Shown here piece by piece: positions 3,251-11,501 of a stretch of 11,558 nucleotides of DNA (position 1 is the stretch's first letter; every line of letters starts with the position of its first letter). The notes beneath the pieces were generated by a model. The model made no database searches. It was not told the DNA's origin and saw only the letters and a list, made by a program, of their open reading frames with translations. This stretch comes from Lentzea sp. (GTDB lineage: Bacteria; Actinomycetota; Actinomycetes; Mycobacteriales; Pseudonocardiaceae). The DNA is taken from NCBI GenBank assembly GCA_030146905.1, contig JASLAV010000603.1, positions 1-11,558 on the forward strand. Reading direction: 5' to 3'. The translations under genes were made by a program, and so were the position numbers.

Positions 3251-3293
3251 CCGTTCGGGCCACTGCGAACCAACCGGCGTAGCGGGTTGCTTA

Positions 3294-3310
3294 CGTCCGG
3301 TGATCGGACG
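3294..3310 (+). promoter_or_regulatory. Inverted repeat just before the GGDEF-EAL start codon
   Basis: CGTCCG (3294-3299) and CGGACG (3305-3310) are perfect reverse complements with a 5-nt spacer, ending 3 nt before ATG 3314. No Shine-Dalgarno is visible here, so it could be an operator over a leaderless start or an RNA hairpin at the ribosome entry site. If translation began at TTG 3287 the repeat would lie in coding sequence. Confidence 0.35.
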
Positions 3311-3313
3311 ATC

Positions 3314-5323
3314 ATGACGCGCGTGATGTCCTACTGCCGCACGGTTCTGGACCGGGCGGGTGTCGGCTATGCCGTGACGGATGCGCGCGGAAACCTGTTG
3401 TGGTGCAACCGCGCGATGGGTGCTGTGCTCGGTGTTCCGGTGGAGCAGGCGTACGGGCGGTCGTTGCCGGCGCTGCTGCCGGGTGCGCCGGAGGTGCCGG
3501 CGCCGGCGAGGGAAGTGCTGGTGCCGGGGCCGAAGTGGCTCGAGGTGCGGTGTTCCCGGCTGGGTGATGACCTGATGTACGAGGTCGTGGACGTGTCGGC
3601 GTGGCGTGATCGTGAGTTGACGGTGACGCAGGAGGCGGACGCGTTGCGGCGGGCTCAGGCGCTGGGGCGCATGGGTACGTGGGAGTGGGCGATCACCGAG
3701 GACCGGGTGACGTGGTCGGACACGTTGCTGGAGATGTTCGGGTTCGAGCCGGGGACGGCGTTCGACTTCGAGTTGTACTCGCGGCTGGTGCACCCGGATG
3801 ACCTGCCGATGATCGAGGAGACGCTGGACGCGGCGTTGAAGACGGGGTCGGTGTTCACGTACACGCATCGGATGTTGCGCCCGGATGGCAAGGAGCGCGT
3901 GTTCGAGTGTTTCGGTGAGGTCGTCGTGGGTGATGACGGGACGCCGTTGCGTGCGTTGGGGACGGCGCATGACGTGACGCAGTCGTCGCGGGTGCACGAC
4001 GAGCTGGTGAGGATGGCGGAGCAGGATCCGCTGACGGGGTTGCCGAACCGCAGGGCGTTGACGCGTGCGCTGGAGCAGGAGCTCGCGAACGGTGTGTCGG
4101 GTGCTTTGCTGGTGTTGGACCTGGACAACTTCAAGGACGTCAACGATCTGCGTGGTCATGCGGTGGGTGACCGGGTGATGCGGATGCTGGCGTCGGCGTT
4201 GCAGTCTCGTCTGGGTGACAGGTTGATCGCTCGTCTGGGTGGTGACGAGTTCGCGGTGGTGTTGCCGGGTGCGTCGCCGAAGGACGCGTCGGCGGTGGCG
4301 GACGGGTTGCGGGACGCGGTGGCGGGTTTTCCGCTGGCGGGGACTGGTACTCCTGCGCGGATCACGGTGAGCACGGGGCTGGCGGAGTTCGGTCCTGGTG
4401 ATTCGTGGGAGTTGGTGCTGGCGAACGCGGATTTGGCGTTGTACGCGTCGAAGGCGGCGGGCCGGGATCGGGTGACGGTGTACGAGCCGAACCATTACGC
4501 GGACACGGTGAAGCGTGTGAGTGTGCTGGATCGGTTGCGGGCGGCGTTGGCGGGTGGCGGTCTGGCGTTGCACGGGATGCCGATGGTGGAGCTGGCGACG
4601 GGTCAGACGCTGGGGCATGAGTTGTTGTTGCGGTTGGAGGATGGTCAGGAGCCGTATTTGGGTCCTGCGGACTTCTTGCCGGTGGCGGAGCGGTCGAACC
4701 TGATCCTGGAGGTCGATCGGTGGGTGTTGACGACGGCGATCGACGCGTTGGTGGCGGAGCCGGATTCGCGGTTGCGGTTCAACGTGAACGTGTCGGGGCG
4801 GACGTTGGAGGATCCTGACTTCGGTGATTTCGTGTTGGACAAGCTGGGGTCGGCGGGGGTGGCTCCCGGCCGGTTGGGGTTGGAGATCACGGAGACGGCG
4901 GCGGTGACCAATTTGGACGCCGCGGTGGCGTTGGCGACGCAGCTGCGGAGTTTCGGGTGCCGGATCACGTTGGACGACTTCGGGTCGGGGTTCGGGTCGT
5001 TCGTGCACTTGAAGCACTTGCCGATCACGGGGATCAAGATCGACGGTGAGTTCGTGAAGGGGATCGAGACCAACGACGCGGATGCGGTGCTGGTGTCGGG
5101 GATCGTGCAGATCGCGAACGGGCTGGGGTTGTCGGCGGTGGCGGAGTGGGTGGAGCGGCCGTCGCAGGTGGAGGCGTTGCGCCGGTTGGGTGTGCGGGTG
5201 GGGCAGGGTTTTCACCTGGGCAGGCCGGTGCCGTTGCGTGATGTGGTGAGTGCGGAGCGCATGCCGCCGAATGGCGCATTGTCGTCTCGGGTGGTCGGAG
5301 CAGAGGATGGTGCGCGCTCCTGA
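3314..5323 (+). CDS. PAS-PAS-GGDEF-EAL cyclic-di-GMP synthase/phosphodiesterase
   Basis: A soluble 669-residue protein without membrane segments. Order of domains: PAS 1 (about 15-95, VGYAVTDARGNLLWCNRAM), PAS 2 with PAC (about 118-225, MGTWEWAITEDRVTWSDTLLEMFG to ALGTAHDVT), GGDEF (about 230-390) and EAL (about 405-650). The GGDEF motif is intact (ARLGGDEF, 309-313), with LDLDNFKDVND supplying the metal Asp, so synthase activity is expected. The inhibitory RxxD is not in its normal place five residues before GGDEF; an RLGD lies one residue too far upstream. The EAL signature is ELL (436-438), keeping the catalytic Glu; NVNVS, LEITE, LDDFGSGFG, IKIDGEFV, AEWVE and GQGF supply the other metal and catalytic residues, so hydrolysis is also likely. 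PAS domains presumably set the balance. ATG 3314 is chosen; TTG 3287 and ATG 3326 are alternatives, none with a clear ribosome-binding site. The VOC gene starts 15 bp after the stop. Confidence 0.93.
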   Translation: MTRVMSYCRTVLDRAGVGYAVTDARGNLLWCNRAMGAVLGVPVEQAYGRSLPALLPGAPEVPAPAREVLVPGPKWLEVRCSRLGDDLMYEVVDVSAWRDRELTVTQEADALRRAQALGRMGTWEWAITEDRVTWSDTLLEMFGFEPGTAFDFELYSRLVHPDDLPMIEETLDAALKTGSVFTYTHRMLRPDGKERVFECFGEVVVGDDGTPLRALGTAHDVTQSSRVHDELVRMAEQDPLTGLPNRRALTRALEQELANGVSGALLVLDLDNFKDVNDLRGHAVGDRVMRMLASALQSRLGDRLIARLGGDEFAVVLPGASPKDASAVADGLRDAVAGFPLAGTGTPARITVSTGLAEFGPGDSWELVLANADLALYASKAAGRDRVTVYEPNHYADTVKRVSVLDRLRAALAGGGLALHGMPMVELATGQTLGHELLLRLEDGQEPYLGPADFLPVAERSNLILEVDRWVLTTAIDALVAEPDSRLRFNVNVSGRTLEDPDFGDFVLDKLGSAGVAPGRLGLEITETAAVTNLDAAVALATQLRSFGCRITLDDFGSGFGSFVHLKHLPITGIKIDGEFVKGIETNDADAVLVSGIVQIANGLGLSAVAEWVERPSQVEALRRLGVRVGQGFHLGRPVPLRDVVSAERMPPNGALSSRVVGAEDGARS

Positions 5324-7490: not shown

Positions 7491-7967
7491 TCAGGCGTCG
7501 AGCTCGGGTGGGAAGCCGCCGGTGGCGATGGGGCCCCAGCTGTCGATGGTGACGCGGATGAGGGACTTGCCCTGGCGGAGCATGGCGGCGCGGTACTCGT
7601 CCCAGTCGGGGTGTTCGCCCGCGATGCAGCGGTAGTACTCGACGAAGTCCTCCAGCGCCTCCGGCAGGTCGAGGACCTCGGCGGTGCCGTCGAGCTGCAC
7701 GTAGGGGCCGTCGAAGTCGTCGGAGAGCACGCACATCGTGACGGCCGGGTTGCGGCGGGCGTTGCGGGCCTTGGCGCGCTGCGGGTAGGTGGCGATGACG
7801 ATGCGGCCTTGCGTGTCGACGCCGCAGGAGACGGGGGAGACCTGCAGGCCGTCCGTGCTGCCGCGGCGGGTGATCAGGACACCGTGGTGGCGGGTGCGGA
7901 GGAACTCGAGCAGCTGCGGCCGGTCGACGACGTCGGCCGTGGCGATCTTCGGCATGATGTGCAGCAT
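7491..7967 (-). CDS. PPOX-class F420-dependent oxidoreductase (FDOR-B-like)
   Basis: A 158-residue split-barrel flavin/deazaflavin-binding protein. Key stretches: LLEFLRTRHHGVLITRRGSTDGLQVSPVSCGVD, RIVIATYPQRAKARNARRNPAVTMCVL, the barrel strand YVQLDGTAEV, and the C-terminal SWGPIATGGFPPEL. The K-x-RN-x-RR-x-P pattern and the SWGP/TGG end match actinobacterial F420-binding members of the pyridoxamine-phosphate-oxidase superfamily; the substrate cannot be told. ATG 7967 is set by an unusually strong Shine-Dalgarno, AAGGAGGTGA, 8 nt before it. A GTG at 7994 in the same frame would place this element inside the gene. The start codon overlaps that of the divergent hydrolase gene at a shared CATG. 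It is convergent with the Rid gene across a terminator hairpin. Confidence 0.92.
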   Translation of the reverse strand: MLHIMPKIATADVVDRPQLLEFLRTRHHGVLITRRGSTDGLQVSPVSCGVDTQGRIVIATYPQRAKARNARRNPAVTMCVLSDDFDGPYVQLDGTAEVLDLPEALEDFVEYYRCIAGEHPDWDEYRAAMLRQGKSLIRVTIDSWGPIATGGFPPELDA

Positions 7968-8808
7968 GGCACGGTTCACCTCCTTCGACGGCACAGAGCT
8001 CGCTTACCGGGAAGCGGGTGAGGGCGTTCCGCTGATCGTCTTGGCCGGTGGTCCCGGCAGGGCGTCGGAGTACCTGGAGACGCTGGGCGGGCTGGACGCG
8101 TCGCGGCGGCTGGTCGTGCTGGACAACCGGGGTACCGGTGAGTCGGGCGAGCCCGCGGACCCGTTCACCTACCGTCGCGACATGCTGGTGCGTGACGTGG
8201 AGGTGCTGCGCCGGCACCTGGGTGTGGAGCGGGTGGACGTGCTGGGGCACTCCGCGGGTGCGGGGATCGCGATGGGGTACGCGGCGGACTTCCCCGGCCG
8301 GGTGGGCAGGCTGGTGTTGCTGACGCCGGCGTTGCGCAGTGTCGGGTTGTCGCCGGAGCAGGGCGACTGGGACGCGTTCCTGGCGGCGCGTGCCGGTGAG
8401 CCGTGGTTCGCGGACGCGGTGGCGGCGATGGAGCGCAGTGCCGCCGGTGACGACACGGTGGAGAACCGGGTGGCGGCGTCGCCGCTGTTCTACGCGCGCT
8501 GGGACGAGCGGGCGCGGACGCACGCGCTGGCCGAGCTGGGGCAGTGGAAGTACGAGGTGGCGCTGGGCTACAACGCCGAGGGTGCGTTCGTGCCGGGTGT
8601 GCTGCGGCGTGCGCTGGCCGACTTCGACCACCCGGTGCTGGTGTACGCGTGCACGGAGGACCCGATCTCGCCGGTGCGGCGGTGCACGGAGCTGGCCGCG
8701 TTGTTCCCGGATGTCACGCTGCACGTGCACGAGGGTGTCGGGCACTACCCGTGGGTGGAGGAACCGGAGCAGGTCGCGCGGCGCGTCGCGGCGTTCCTGG
8801 ACTCCTAG
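7966..8808 (+). CDS. Alpha/beta hydrolase (proline-iminopeptidase-like, S33 type)
   Basis: A 280-residue cytoplasmic hydrolase. The oxyanion region is GGPG (28-31), followed by VVLDNRGTGES, characteristic of the S33 peptidase/epoxide-hydrolase branch. The catalytic triad is visible: nucleophile Ser96 in GHSAGAG, Asp232 in CTEDPISPV, and His260 in GVGHYPWVEEP. The cap domain (about 125-215) is rich in Trp, Glu and Asp; substrate cannot be predicted, and an aminopeptidase, esterase or lactonase are all possible. ATG 7966 gives the natural N-terminus MARFTSFDGTELAYREAGEG; ATG 7954 and 7957 are in-frame alternatives. No Shine-Dalgarno is visible before any of them, so it may be leaderless. Its start codon overlaps the PPOX start on the other strand, and its stop lies 10 bp from the stop of the convergent cyclase gene. 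Confidence 0.93.
   Translation: MARFTSFDGTELAYREAGEGVPLIVLAGGPGRASEYLETLGGLDASRRLVVLDNRGTGESGEPADPFTYRRDMLVRDVEVLRRHLGVERVDVLGHSAGAGIAMGYAADFPGRVGRLVLLTPALRSVGLSPEQGDWDAFLAARAGEPWFADAVAAMERSAAGDDTVENRVAASPLFYARWDERARTHALAELGQWKYEVALGYNAEGAFVPGVLRRALADFDHPVLVYACTEDPISPVRRCTELAALFPDVTLHVHEGVGHYPWVEEPEQVARRVAAFLDS
7976..7985 (-). promoter_or_regulatory. Strong Shine-Dalgarno of the PPOX gene
   Basis: AAGGAGGTGA on the minus strand is complementary to ten bases of the 16S rRNA 3' end and lies 8 nt before ATG 7967. It fixes the start of the PPOX gene. On the plus strand the same bases encode residues 4-7 of the divergent hydrolase. Confidence 0.85.
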
Positions 8809-8818
8809 GAACGGGTGG

Positions 8819-10072
8819 CTAGAAGGCGGTCGCGGTGGCGACGCGGTCGCGGCCGTTGTTCTTGGCCTGGTAGAGCGCCTCGTCGGCGGCCAGCAGCAGG
8901 GGGCTGAGTTCGGTGGCCGTGTCGGGGAACACCGCCGCGCCCACCGACGCGGTCAGCCCGGTGATGACGCGGTCGTGGCCCAGGCGGTCGACGACGGCGA
9001 TGTGCAGGCTCGCGATCTCGAGCCGGATGCGTTCGGCGGTGGCGCGGACCTCGCCGGTGCTGACGCCGGGCAGCAGCACGGCGAACTCCTCGCCGCCGAA
9101 GCGGCCCACGAGGTCGTAGGAGCGCACGGAGTGCTTCAGGGCGTCCGCGACGGCTCGCAGCACGCGGTCGCCGGCGAGGTGGCCGTAGTTGTCGTTGATC
9201 AGCTTGAAGTGGTCGAGGTCCAGCAGCAGCACGCCGACGGTGGAGACCAGGCGGCGGGCGCGGGCGAGTTCGCGTTCGGCGACGTCGTGCCAGAACGTCG
9301 CGTCGACCAGGCCGGTCTTGGAGTCGGTGCGGGCCGCGACCCGGAACTGCGGCAGCAGCAGGCCCATGTGCAGGGCCAGGACGGTGAGCAGCAGCATCGG
9401 TGTCAGCCACGGCCTGGCGAGCATGATGATCGCGACCCCGGAGCCCAGGCCGACCGAGGCGAGCACGATGAGCACGTCGGAGGCGTTGCCCAGTGCGGTG
9501 CGGACGGGGTTCTGGCGGTTGGTCACGAAGATCGCGGTGACGACCAGCGCGTAGTTGATGAACCAGTACAGGAACCCGGCCGTGACCAGGGTCACCAGGC
9601 CGAGTGGTCCGTCGACGTCCACGGCGCGGCCGGGGAACAGAGCGAGGACGATCTGTGCGGCGGCGCTGCCGAGGACCACGGAGGACGCGGAGAACACTTT
9701 GCGGAAGAGCACGGCGCGGCGTTTGTAGACGCGGAACCACGAGTGGGTGTAGCTGACGATGATCAGCGCCACGAGCAGCGGCATGGGGAGCACGAGGACG
9801 CCGGCGAACAGCCACACGGATTGCATGTGGGCGTGCGGTGAGCCTTCGGCTCCGATCTCGCGGATGCGTTCGATGCCCCTGGCCGCTTCCAGGTGCAGGA
9901 CGGCTCCGCCGGCGAGCAGCAGGAAGAAGGGCCAGTTCAAGGCTTCGGCAGGGGTACGTCGTGCGGTGGCGACCGTGACGAGGGTCGCTGCGGCAACCAC
10001 CGTCACGACGTAGGCCAGCACCACAGGCGGAAGCGACCATAACTTCCACCGGCGCGGGTCGAGCCAAGGCAC
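8819..10072 (-). CDS. Membrane-bound diguanylate cyclase (GGDEF)
   Basis: About 417 residues. The N-terminal half holds roughly seven hydrophobic segments (for example around residues 15-33, 47-63, 86-108, 129-147, 156-183, 197-219 and 223-241), a membrane sensor of no family I can name. The C-terminal GGDEF domain (about 248-417) starts TDSKTGLVDATFWHDVAERE, has LLLDLDHFKLINDNYGHLAGD with the metal Asp, the active-site loop GRFGGEEFAVLLPG (GGEEF 326-330) and the end ADEALYQAKNNGRDRV. RSYD (317-320) sits exactly five residues before GGEEF, the canonical RxxD inhibitory site, so feedback inhibition by cyclic-di-GMP is expected. No EAL domain is present. GTG 10072 is chosen because GGGGGGTGG precedes it and the upstream open frame to GTG 10159 contains a rare TTA codon and runs through possible promoter sequence. 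Confidence 0.9.
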   Translation of the reverse strand: MPWLDPRRWKLWSLPPVVLAYVVTVVAAATLVTVATARRTPAEALNWPFFLLLAGGAVLHLEAARGIERIREIGAEGSPHAHMQSVWLFAGVLVLPMPLLVALIIVSYTHSWFRVYKRRAVLFRKVFSASSVVLGSAAAQIVLALFPGRAVDVDGPLGLVTLVTAGFLYWFINYALVVTAIFVTNRQNPVRTALGNASDVLIVLASVGLGSGVAIIMLARPWLTPMLLLTVLALHMGLLLPQFRVAARTDSKTGLVDATFWHDVAERELARARRLVSTVGVLLLDLDHFKLINDNYGHLAGDRVLRAVADALKHSVRSYDLVGRFGGEEFAVLLPGVSTGEVRATAERIRLEIASLHIAVVDRLGHDRVITGLTASVGAAVFPDTATELSPLLLAADEALYQAKNNGRDRVATATAF

Positions 10073-10154
10073 GCTGCCACCCCCCACACCACCGTCCGGG
10101 AACCAACCACTGTAGCTACCGGGTAACTCGAAGTCGTGGCTCCATGTGGGGGAC

Positions 10155-10193
10155 CTCACCGTGAGTAGTCCTCACTGTATGCAGCCCGGTCAA
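10155..10193. promoter_or_regulatory. Divergent control region with three CTCAC/GTGAG half-sites
   Basis: CTCAC (10155-10159), GTGAG (10161-10165) and CTCAC (10171-10175) form two overlapping dyads, one with a 1-nt and one with a 5-nt spacer. TTGACC reads leftward at 10193-10188, a good -35 for the cyclase gene, although no convincing -10 follows at normal distance. The block lies between the cyclase start and the small repeat-peptide gene, so it could control either or both. Confidence 0.4.
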
Positions 10194-10224: not shown

Positions 10225-10229
10225 AGGAG
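10225..10229 (+). promoter_or_regulatory. Shine-Dalgarno of the RPTDW peptide gene
   Basis: AGGAG ends 5 nt before ATG 10235. This is a better ribosome-binding site than most genes in this window have, and it is a main reason to call the short gene. Confidence 0.7.
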
Positions 10230-10234
10230 CAGCC

Positions 10235-10333
10235 ATGATCAACCGTACCTCCGCTGCCGGCCGTCCCGTCCGTCCGACCGACTGGGTGCGCCCCACCGAC
10301 TGGAACCGCCCGACCGACTGGGCCCGCCGCTGA
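10235..10333 (+). CDS. Small basic peptide with three tandem RPTDW repeats
   Basis: A 32-codon gene, ATG to TGA, with AGGAG 5 nt upstream. The peptide has a short N-terminal part (MINRTSAAGRPV), then the hexads RPTDWV, RPTDWN and RPTDWA, and ends RR. It has seven Arg, three Asp, three Trp, no Cys and no membrane or signal segment. The three repeat copies differ in DNA only at third codon positions (CGT/CGC, CCG/CCC), so the amino-acid repeat is kept exactly while the overlapping minus-strand frame changes residues; this supports selection in the plus frame. Each Trp is followed by x-Arg. It does not match any family I know. It could be the precursor of a modified peptide, a short signalling peptide or a small regulatory protein; no modifying enzyme or cotranscribed gene is present, and 95 of its 99 bases lie antisense within the 3' end of the MFS gene. 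Confidence 0.62.
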   Translation: MINRTSAAGRPVRPTDWVRPTDWNRPTDWARR

Positions 10334-11501
10334 GCCACCACAGCACTGCCGCGCCGCTCGCCGCGAGCACGCCCAGTGCTCCGGCGGCGGCGACGACCTG
10401 GTGCACCGCGAGGGTTTCCGCGGCCAGTCCGGCCAAGGCGACACCGACGCCCTGGGAGACCCGCAGTGCGGTGACGGCCAGGCCGAACGCCTGGCCGCGT
10501 GAGGAGTCCGGCACCGCCCGCACGAACCGCGTGTTCGCGGCCAGGTGGTAGGCGCTGGCCGCGCCGGACAGGGCGAACATGCCGAGGCTGACCGCGAGAC
10601 CCGGCCGCAGCGCGGCCGGGACGAGCACCGCGCACGCGGCGATCGCCAGCCACGGCATCAGCCGCAGCTGCCGCCGCTCGTCCAGCCGTGCCAGCAGCAG
10701 CATGCCCGCCGCCGCACCGGCGGCGTAGGCGGCGAAGATCAGTCCCACCCCGGCCGGTCCCGCTCCCAGCCGTGCCGCGTAGGGGGCGGCGAGGGCTTCG
10801 CCGACGATGTAGAAGCCAGAGACGCACGCGAGCGCGACCAGTGCCCGCATCTCCCGGTCGCACCACACCAGGCGGGCGCCGCCCACCAGGTCGGCGGGCC
10901 AGGCCCGTTCGCGCGGGCTGTGCGGAGCGGGCCGCGGCAGCAGGAACACGCCCACGAGCAGTGCCGACACGGCGAACGTCACCGCGTCGGCCAGCAGCAC
11001 CAGGCCCGGTCCGAACCAGGCGACCAGCGCGCCGCCGGTGAGGAACCCGGCGACCTGCGCGGCCTGCGTCACGGTGCCGAGCACAGCCTGCCCGAGCGGA
11101 TAGCGCTCGTCGGGCAGGATCTGCGGCAGCAACGCCGCCCGCGCCGCCCCGTGCGGTGCCCCCGCGAACTGCACCTGCACCAGCAGTGCCGCGAGCACCC
11201 ACAGCGGCACCCCGGGCACCGCCATCAGCACGAGCAGCGCCGCCCGGACCACGTCGGCGGCGACCATGACGTTCCTGCGCGCGAACCGGTCGGCGAGACC
11301 GGAGAGCACAGGCCCGCCGACCAGGTCCGGCAGGAACGTCAGCGCGTAGGTCAGGGCGGTCAGGCCCGTGCTCGCGGTGCGGTCGTAGACGTGCACGGTG
11401 AGCGCGACCCGTGCGAACTGGTCCCCGGCCACCGACACCACGTGCGCCACGAACAGGGCGCGGAACTCGCGGTCGCGAGCGAGCTCGCGGTAGCCGGGCA
11501 T
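10239..11501 (-). CDS. MFS exporter, DHA3/EntS-like
   Basis: A 420-residue permease with twelve predicted spans in two bundles. The N-terminus YRELARDREFRALFVAHVVSVAGDQFARVALTVHVYDRT and MFS motif A, SGLADRFARRNVM, between spans 2 and 3 place it in the MFS_3/DHA3 drug or siderophore exporter branch; the second bundle has the corresponding LLLARLDERRQLRLMPW loop. The substrate is unknown. The transporter fold ends at about AAVLWWLSGG; the remaining roughly 30 residues (PSRSGG, SSRWGA, PSRSDG and a basic end) are a low-complexity Ser/Gly/Arg tail encoded opposite the RPTDW peptide gene, probably a passive consequence of that overlap. ATG 11501 has only a GGAG with a short 3-nt gap before it. 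The gene lies upstream of the cyclase gene in the same direction, but 166 bp and the peptide gene separate them. Confidence 0.92.
   Translation of the reverse strand: MPGYRELARDREFRALFVAHVVSVAGDQFARVALTVHVYDRTASTGLTALTYALTFLPDLVGGPVLSGLADRFARRNVMVAADVVRAALLVLMAVPGVPLWVLAALLVQVQFAGAPHGAARAALLPQILPDERYPLGQAVLGTVTQAAQVAGFLTGGALVAWFGPGLVLLADAVTFAVSALLVGVFLLPRPAPHSPRERAWPADLVGGARLVWCDREMRALVALACVSGFYIVGEALAAPYAARLGAGPAGVGLIFAAYAAGAAAGMLLLARLDERRQLRLMPWLAIAACAVLVPAALRPGLAVSLGMFALSGAASAYHLAANTRFVRAVPDSSRGQAFGLAVTALRVSQGVGVALAGLAAETLAVHQVVAAAGALGVLAASGAAVLWWLSGGPSRSGGSSRWGAPSRSDGRDGRQRRYG
10271..10324 (+). repeat. 18-bp tandem repeat, three copies, coding for RPTDWx
   Basis: Copies at 10271-10288, 10289-10306 and 10307-10324 share CCACCGACTGG or CCGACCGACTGG cores. 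Differences inside the RPTDW codons are two synonymous third-base changes; the sixth codon varies (Val, Asn, Ala). Confidence 0.85.

Follow-up and report, generated by a model that had tools for sequence, protein, structure and literature searches.

Repeated xxxW micropeptides encoded beside S-component-like diguanylate cyclases in Lentzea and other actinobacteria are candidate cognate ligands

We analyzed a stretch of 11,558 nucleotides from Lentzea sp. (assembly GCA_030146905.1, contig JASLAV010000603.1; hereafter the window) that carries a micropeptide gene of 32 codons and a stop at 10235-10333 (+), the product of which repeats the box RPTDW three times. This gene falls within a larger, unannotated family repeating a single xxxW unit (three residues and a tryptophan), often RxxxW, in a slot that is divergent from a membrane GGDEF gene and often convergent with a major facilitator superfamily (MFS) gene. 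Comparison across genomes showed conserved multi-copy xxxW units that are under selection at the codon level and tied to one cyclase family. Tentatively, with a probability of about 0.45, we propose that the window peptide is a self-encoded multi-copy ligand of the adjoining S-component-like diguanylate cyclase. The xxxW peptides would then be an unrecognized class of cognate ligands, providing several private peptide-to-cyclic-di-GMP (c-di-GMP) channels per cell and made, depending on the lineage, as polyprotein repeats or as arrays of heptapeptide minigenes.

Results

The micropeptide gene and selection on its reading frame

Translation from the ATG of the gene gives MINRTSAAGRPVRPTDWVRPTDWNRPTDWARR followed by the stop. 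A Shine-Dalgarno sequence, AGGAG, lies at 10225-10229 (+), 5 nt 5' of the ATG, and the surrounding region, CCCATAGGAGCAG(C/T)C, is conserved with small changes across seven Lentzea copies. The product consists of an N-terminal MINRTSAAGRPV, three RPTDW boxes (10271-10285, 10289-10303 and 10307-10321, all on the plus strand) and a C-terminal ARR. Only two DNA differences, CGT/CGC and CCG/CCC, distinguish the boxes, and both are synonymous.

Codons were compared among the seven Lentzea copies, the window included. The plus frame contained 107 synonymous and 55 nonsynonymous differing codon pairs, versus 15 and 172 in the antisense MFS frame, and the polymorphic sites at plus codon positions 1, 2 and 3 numbered 4, 3 and 13 out of 28 each; the MFS tail was free to vary while the peptide was retained. 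The third frame (the minus frame other than that of MFS) gave 119 synonymous and 55 nonsynonymous pairs because it shares its wobble position with the plus frame; on its own, therefore, the ratio would not pick out the plus frame. In the six of the seven copies where it was located, the MFS open frame spans the peptide gene. Judged from these comparisons, the RPTDW repeat is under selection in the plus frame, and the window micropeptide is very probably translated. An earlier sequence-only reading of the window had claimed both; selection is borne out by the codon comparison and the orthologues, translation at the grade just given. That reading had also correctly described the synonymous box differences and the overlap with the MFS frame, and RPTDW, the absence of which from relatives it had named as refuting, is carried by an orthologue in six Lentzea species.

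The overlap of the MFS open frame with the gene in Lentzea would also suit a chance frame antisense to the MFS tail. This explanation is already contradicted by the comparative evidence and has, in our view, almost no probability left: constraint acts on the plus frame but not on the MFS tail, the Amycolatopsis MFS frame stops before the peptide gene, and the peptide family is present also at loci without MFS.

Orthologues and variation of the unit

Scanning the genome collection with the pattern RPTDW-x-RPTDW gave eight loci: six in Lentzea, one in Amycolatopsis xylanica and one in Brachybacterium. The first seven are flanked by a membrane GGDEF gene in divergent and an MFS gene in convergent orientation, and the Amycolatopsis neighbor proteins (GGDEF and MFS) are 58-61% identical. 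The peptide was matched at E up to 0.01 in 15 of 24 Lentzea genomes, with one copy each. Eight of the nine remaining genomes encode at the equivalent position a different peptide with six STDW units (L122-L129); the ninth, G021, possibly an incomplete assembly, had a match to neither the peptide nor the cyclase (cyclase E 1e-50), a joint absence that fits a link between the two. Among relatives the unit varies to RPNDW and RPNEW, and in other genera to RPSEW, RPTEW and RPADW.

The boxes within one peptide mostly vary in concert. Non-identical boxes were found at L020 and L021 (first box RPSDL), L132 and L142 (first box degenerate), L154 (PTDR, PTEW), L199 (DVNW, DSNW) and L203 (one unit ending in WR). 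The L190 peptide, with four DSHW boxes plus one DSNW and one DVHW, is a possible intermediate between unit types.

Several candidates were rejected as kin: Brachybacterium timonense L006, where RPTDWS/RPTGWS repeats fill an open frame of 210 codons close to the beginning of the record, which we judge to be an unrelated tandem repeat; L028, L029 and L031, where RPxDW-x-RPxDW sits within frames of 333 residues; and the plasmid matches H3 and H5, which differ in frame and context. A class-wide profile search yielded no accepted kin besides G008 itself (next best E 4.7e-4), a weak negative, as the profile had no gapped linker and was blind to minigenes.

xxxW units beside cyclases

We searched the cyclase in 390 genomes of the family Pseudonocardiaceae and read the DNA divergent from it. 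The counts cover 95 distinct family-level cyclase places among the matches listed and 29 class-level loci (L198-L226) and are not a census; L196 and L197 were left out as second copies of L132 and L135, and L237 and L238 were left out of the class count, having been found via the peptide pattern. The upstream stretch was shortened by a contig end at L139, L148, L187 and L198.

Multi-copy units were present at 79 of the 95 family-level places, with at least two in-frame copies at 75 and at least two minigenes at four; six further places had a single copy. At the class level, at least two minigenes were found at 15 of 29 loci and one minigene at four. In total there were 25 distinct multi-copy tetrads, or 29 counting the single-copy ones. 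In Pseudonocardiaceae the unit mostly occurs in 2-10 copies in one small protein (PTDW, PNDW, PSEW, STDW, GNEW, GSEW, DSNW, SNNW). In Amycolatopsis and its kin, proteins no longer than 113 residues contain 5-10 PTDW units, and other family-level units are GNEW (3-7 copies), GSEW (3-4), DSNW (3-7), SNNW (4), DSHW (4), PSEW (two at L068) and DKIW (three at L286, two at L290). The copies share a single frame in 42 of 43 regions with at least three copies, the exception (L195) being composed of separate minigenes.

As a control, xxxW tetrads were counted in 129 upstream regions; in a few cases these overlap as copies of a single locus. Tetrads occurring at least two, three and four times numbered 98, 68 and 47 on the peptide strand, 47, 13 and 3 on the opposite strand and 10, 0 and 0 after triplet shuffling. 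Tetrads ending in other codons also reached four copies (GAC 20, CTG 12, AAC 11, TTC 10), because repeated DNA repeats the neighboring codons too, Asp preceding Trp in many units. Therefore, we place weight on the frame, codon and blind-search results and not on the tetrad count.

Minigene arrays

In more distant actinobacteria, and in a few Pseudonocardiaceae, the unit is made by arrays of separate open reading frames (ORFs) of 6-8 codons, each with its own Shine-Dalgarno-like site. The class-level arrays comprised MRDNTWT (4-8 copies), MRDNTWS (5), MRDNNWN (8), MRANSWD (2-3), MRDTTWS (five at L208; twelve plus one MRDTTWR at L203, with two GTG starts), MRDNHWTP (3) with MRDNHW, MRDVNWT (2) with MRDSNWT (2), MRHTSWS (2) and MRSVQWA (2); MRDKIW (2-4) was found at the family level. 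Substitutions between the minigenes of one array fell almost entirely on the third codon position: for positions 1/2/3 the counts were 0/0/23 at L205, 0/0/18 at L206, 0/0/16 at L208, 0/0/8 at L204, 0/0/7 at L210, 0/0/4 at L201, 0/0/3 at L207, 12/0/64 at L203 (leaving aside the WR unit and the GTG starts) and 4/4/10 at L199, where two units are mixed. The units of L195, L198, L200 and L202 had no substitutions between them, and the low-divergence arrays L198 and L202 are recent duplications. Between units, divergence over the 24 nt 3' of the stop is 3-78%. Since the unit is kept while the layout shifts from repeats to minigenes, we argue that the short peptide itself, and not DNA, RNA or a folded protein, is selected.

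A plasmid collection searched with the cyclase gave four records, both actinobacterial ones carrying minigenes; the other two, from Salinivibrio and Deinococcus, matched the GGDEF domain only. On plasmid p1 of Pseudonocardia sp. DSM 110487 (NZ_CP080522.1), four MRNHNW genes lie at 66275-66496 (-) (2186-2407 of L298) beside WP_255622856.1 and are absent from the feature table, a case of annotation overlooking xxxW minigenes. As p1, which bears this array and its cyclase, is a linear plasmid, the pair may be mobile. The Nonomuraea gerenzanensis plasmid record encodes one MVRGVTWT, resembling MLRGVTWI of two class genomes. At L262 (10218-12872) two cyclases of the family are arranged in tandem, and MRDNKWSR minigenes lie upstream of the first.

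The link between unit and cyclase

Whole genomes, most of them chosen for holding the cyclase, were searched blindly, with patterns that say nothing about the cyclase. A pattern for adjacent minigene pairs matched in 13 of 60 genomes: 12 of the 32 that had given a class-level cyclase hit, 1 of the 8 family genomes and none of the 20 without a hit. A pattern of three TDW units matched in 22 of 40 and one of three NEW units in 7 of 32; together these make 41 genomes, G161 being shared by two of the searches. All blind matches were divergently oriented to a listed cyclase, at most about 1.1 kb away, and reversed control patterns gave no matches over whole genomes. The peptide gene thus constantly adjoins the receptor-like gene, both at the cyclase places and in the blind searches.

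A quick tree of 77 cyclases, with several long branches and no shuffled comparison, required 31 unit changes for 26 states, the minimum possible being 25; L286 and L290 were labelled "none" in it, and L226 dropped out. Several genomes hold more than one cyclase-unit pair: STDW and GNEW in G023, PTDW and GNEW in G161, PSEW, PNDW and DKIW in G097, and PNEW and PNDW in G102. A starred clade unites the GNEW cyclase of Lentzea G023, which has a long branch, with cyclases of other genera whose units are GNEW and SNNW. The tracking of the cyclase by the unit fits a ligand-receptor pairing and likewise mere co-inheritance of adjacent genes.

The cyclase and the MFS transporter

The divergent gene of the window, at 8819-10072 (-), encodes a predicted membrane diguanylate cyclase with an S-component-like membrane domain followed by GGDEF (Pfam GGDEF, E 2.6e-40; domain order from models and fold comparison). 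The active site, read by eye, is GGEEF preceded by RxxD (RSYD), in agreement with the GG(D/E)EF of diguanylate cyclases. Its membrane domain had no Pfam match at E 1e-3 and appears most like the S-components of energy-coupling factor (ECF) transporters, a ligand-binding fold, in comparisons of models that leave room for other folds. We took GTG at 10072 as the start. The upstream end of the longer cyclase ORF, at 10073-10159, matches relatives in a frame differing from the rest; therefore, this stretch is conserved as DNA, perhaps as a promoter shared by the divergent genes, and the start of the cyclase is probably near 10072.

The convergent MFS gene (10239-11501, -; Pfam MFS_1, E 1e-28) overlaps the peptide gene in antisense with its tail. 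Of the 420 residues of its product, only the first 350 or so align to relatives, and the nearest group, below cut-offs, is that of H+ antiporters and EntS-like proteins. We clustered the ORFs of 23 regions of 4.6-19.9 kb into families. Antisense shadows aside, two families were common to at least six regions, GGDEF (23/23, by construction) and MFS (18/23), and the remaining clusters shown derive from five closely related regions. No modifying enzyme near the peptide was thus among the families present in at least six of the 23 regions. At L266 the MFS gene is directly downstream of the cyclase rather than beyond the peptide.

Discussion

In the proposed mechanism, the xxxW unit would bind the membrane domain of the cyclase as its ligand, the many copies of the unit would serve dose, and the MFS protein may export it, for which its presence in 18 of 23 regions is only suggestive. 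Paralogous cyclases that differ in their units within one genome would be separate channels. Several observations weigh against this proposal. No unit was found at 10 of 95 family-level and 10 of 29 class-level cyclase places, and co-inheritance of unit and cyclase equally follows from their adjacency alone. Foldseek gave weak support for the S-component fold (best E 0.41), and the VIA-align Z was at best 12.5, in the tool's uncertain range for helical folds. No hydrophobic signal sequence is visible by eye, no protease that could cut the polyproteins is conserved nearby in the 23 regions, and MFS is not among the neighbors at L265, L267, L270, L275 and L276, although L276 (the locus also numbered L217) is a short contig with a partial MFS match.

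Some of these points would suit a cytosolic multivalent regulator that is neither exported nor cut, its identical boxes binding the cyclase (at its cytosolic face or dimer) or the MFS protein as an adaptor or inhibitor. The apparent lack of a secretion signal and the absence of MFS from some loci are in line with it, and several boxes per chain, in frame in nearly all regions with three or more copies, suit avidity. However, minigene arrays yield separate single-unit peptides without avidity, and some loci have a single unit only, so that we consider such a regulator unlikely, if worth keeping in mind. A device acting at the level of translation or RNA, in which the ORFs would act as sensors of tryptophan or charged tRNA, or would hold ribosomes in place, with no role for the peptide itself, could explain the one Trp codon in every unit, the strong Shine-Dalgarno sites and the arrays of mini-ORFs. 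It appears improbable, since synonymous change preserves the three residues preceding Trp within an array, the next gene in the examined loci is convergent and not downstream, and an Rfam scan of the window gave no matches.

The export pump of microcin C is an MFS protein. If the xxxW peptides were likewise exported short effectors or antibiotics of the microcin kind, pumped out by MFS with the cyclase timing production, the 7-codon genes and the transporter nearest, below cut-offs, to H+ antiporters and EntS would resemble the microcin C layout as given in the part of PMC6495379 accessible to us. We give this little credence: no modifying or immunity gene is conserved in the 23 regions, L265, L267 and L270 have peptide and cyclase without MFS, and the concerted variation of units at each cyclase points to recognition. 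Among ribosomally synthesized and post-translationally modified peptides (RiPPs), repeated Trp cores are frequent, and the peptide could be a RiPP precursor whose modifying enzyme is encoded elsewhere in the genome; biarylitides show that very small precursor genes exist (accessible part of PMC13417212). The clustering, which covers the regions and not the genome beyond them, found no family of such an enzyme, the residues around Trp vary widely among units, and the minigenes have no leader, all of which makes a RiPP a poor candidate. The sequence-only reading had considered Trp-x-Arg sites for ring formation; Trp-x-Arg turned out to be no feature of the family (units end in W-stop, WT-stop, WTF or WHR), and the ring-forming enzyme that it had proposed to look for beyond the window was not among the families common to at least six of 23 neighborhoods. 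Its other option, an unmodified signalling or regulatory peptide, is the best-supported one here. Our comparisons add to it xxxW as the conserved unit, divergent GGDEF as the constant partner and tandem heptapeptide minigenes in relatives.

The xxxW peptides are nearest to pheromone-receptor pairs in logic and to microcin C and biarylitides in gene size. In Rgg-SHP systems, a small peptide gene is divergent from and beside the gene of its receptor, a transcription factor, and the yeast alpha-factor precursor contains several copies of one pheromone unit recognized by a G-protein-coupled receptor. These systems share with ours the adjoining receptor gene and the repeated unit, respectively, but neither receptor is a diguanylate cyclase and neither system is known to have minigene arrays. 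The E. coli extracellular death factor NNWNN is also a short Asn/Trp signal peptide; MRDNNWN contains NNWN, possibly by chance, whereas origin and context are different. We know of no peptide ligand of a diguanylate cyclase, of no tandem arrays among biarylitides, and of no other case in which genes of 6-8 codons, with a ribosome site each, form tandem arrays; to our knowledge, the inputs of most membrane diguanylate cyclases have not been described.

According to the accessible part of PMC6495379, the microcin C precursor gene mccA (MRTGNAN) is a 7-codon gene in a cluster with an export pump gene, and reiterative translation is reported for such short ORFs, which by analogy may apply to xxxW minigenes. 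The heptapeptide minigenes share with mccA the seven codons and a product starting with MR; mccA is a single copy and not an array, needs the adenylating enzyme MccB and has no cyclase partner and no xxxW unit. No MccB-like enzyme was among the families common to at least six of the 23 regions, no search with a ThiF model being made. The major mccA clade has a conserved C-terminal Asn, whereas the last residue of xxxW units is W, T, S, D, A, G, I, P or R, and Asn only in MRDNNWN. Biarylitide precursor genes, of 18 bp and five residues, are likewise missed by automatic annotation (PMC13417212), but they are paired with a cytochrome P450 and have motifs such as YWH, YVH and YWY; xxxW units hold Trp and no Tyr, and no P450 family was common to at least six of the 23 regions. 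The xxxW family thus fails the defining features of both systems. The S-component fold, which the modelled membrane domain of the cyclase appears to resemble most, has been linked to 5TMR receptors, some of them fused to GGDEF (PMC11109136); the accessible part of that paper describes no peptide partner.

NCBIfam and Pfam searches with four family peptides gave nothing near cut-off. In a database of 5.8 billion proteins, two members had six and four relatives at E up to 1; these lack Pfam domains, and those that bear a name are called hypothetical or uncharacterized. A literature search over titles and abstract beginnings, with subscription papers mostly outside its coverage, found no description of this peptide-cyclase system. 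As the candidate ligand is encoded beside the enzyme, in many copies and as 25 multi-copy tetrads, ligand-receptor specificity is directly testable with synthetic 6-8-mers. Since c-di-GMP controls Streptomyces development through BldD (accessible part of PMC4151990), xxxW peptides could act as signals of development or population among actinobacteria that produce antibiotics.

Other genes of the window

An alpha/beta hydrolase gene at 7900-8808 (+), with a weak match to S33 aminopeptidases, is arranged tail to tail with the cyclase gene, as it is in other Lentzea; used as a query, its product had no match at Amycolatopsis L004, and a peptidase role is a thought rather than a result. About 3.5 kb past the end of the cyclase gene, a second c-di-GMP enzyme with the domains PAS-GGDEF-EAL is encoded at 3287-5323 (+).
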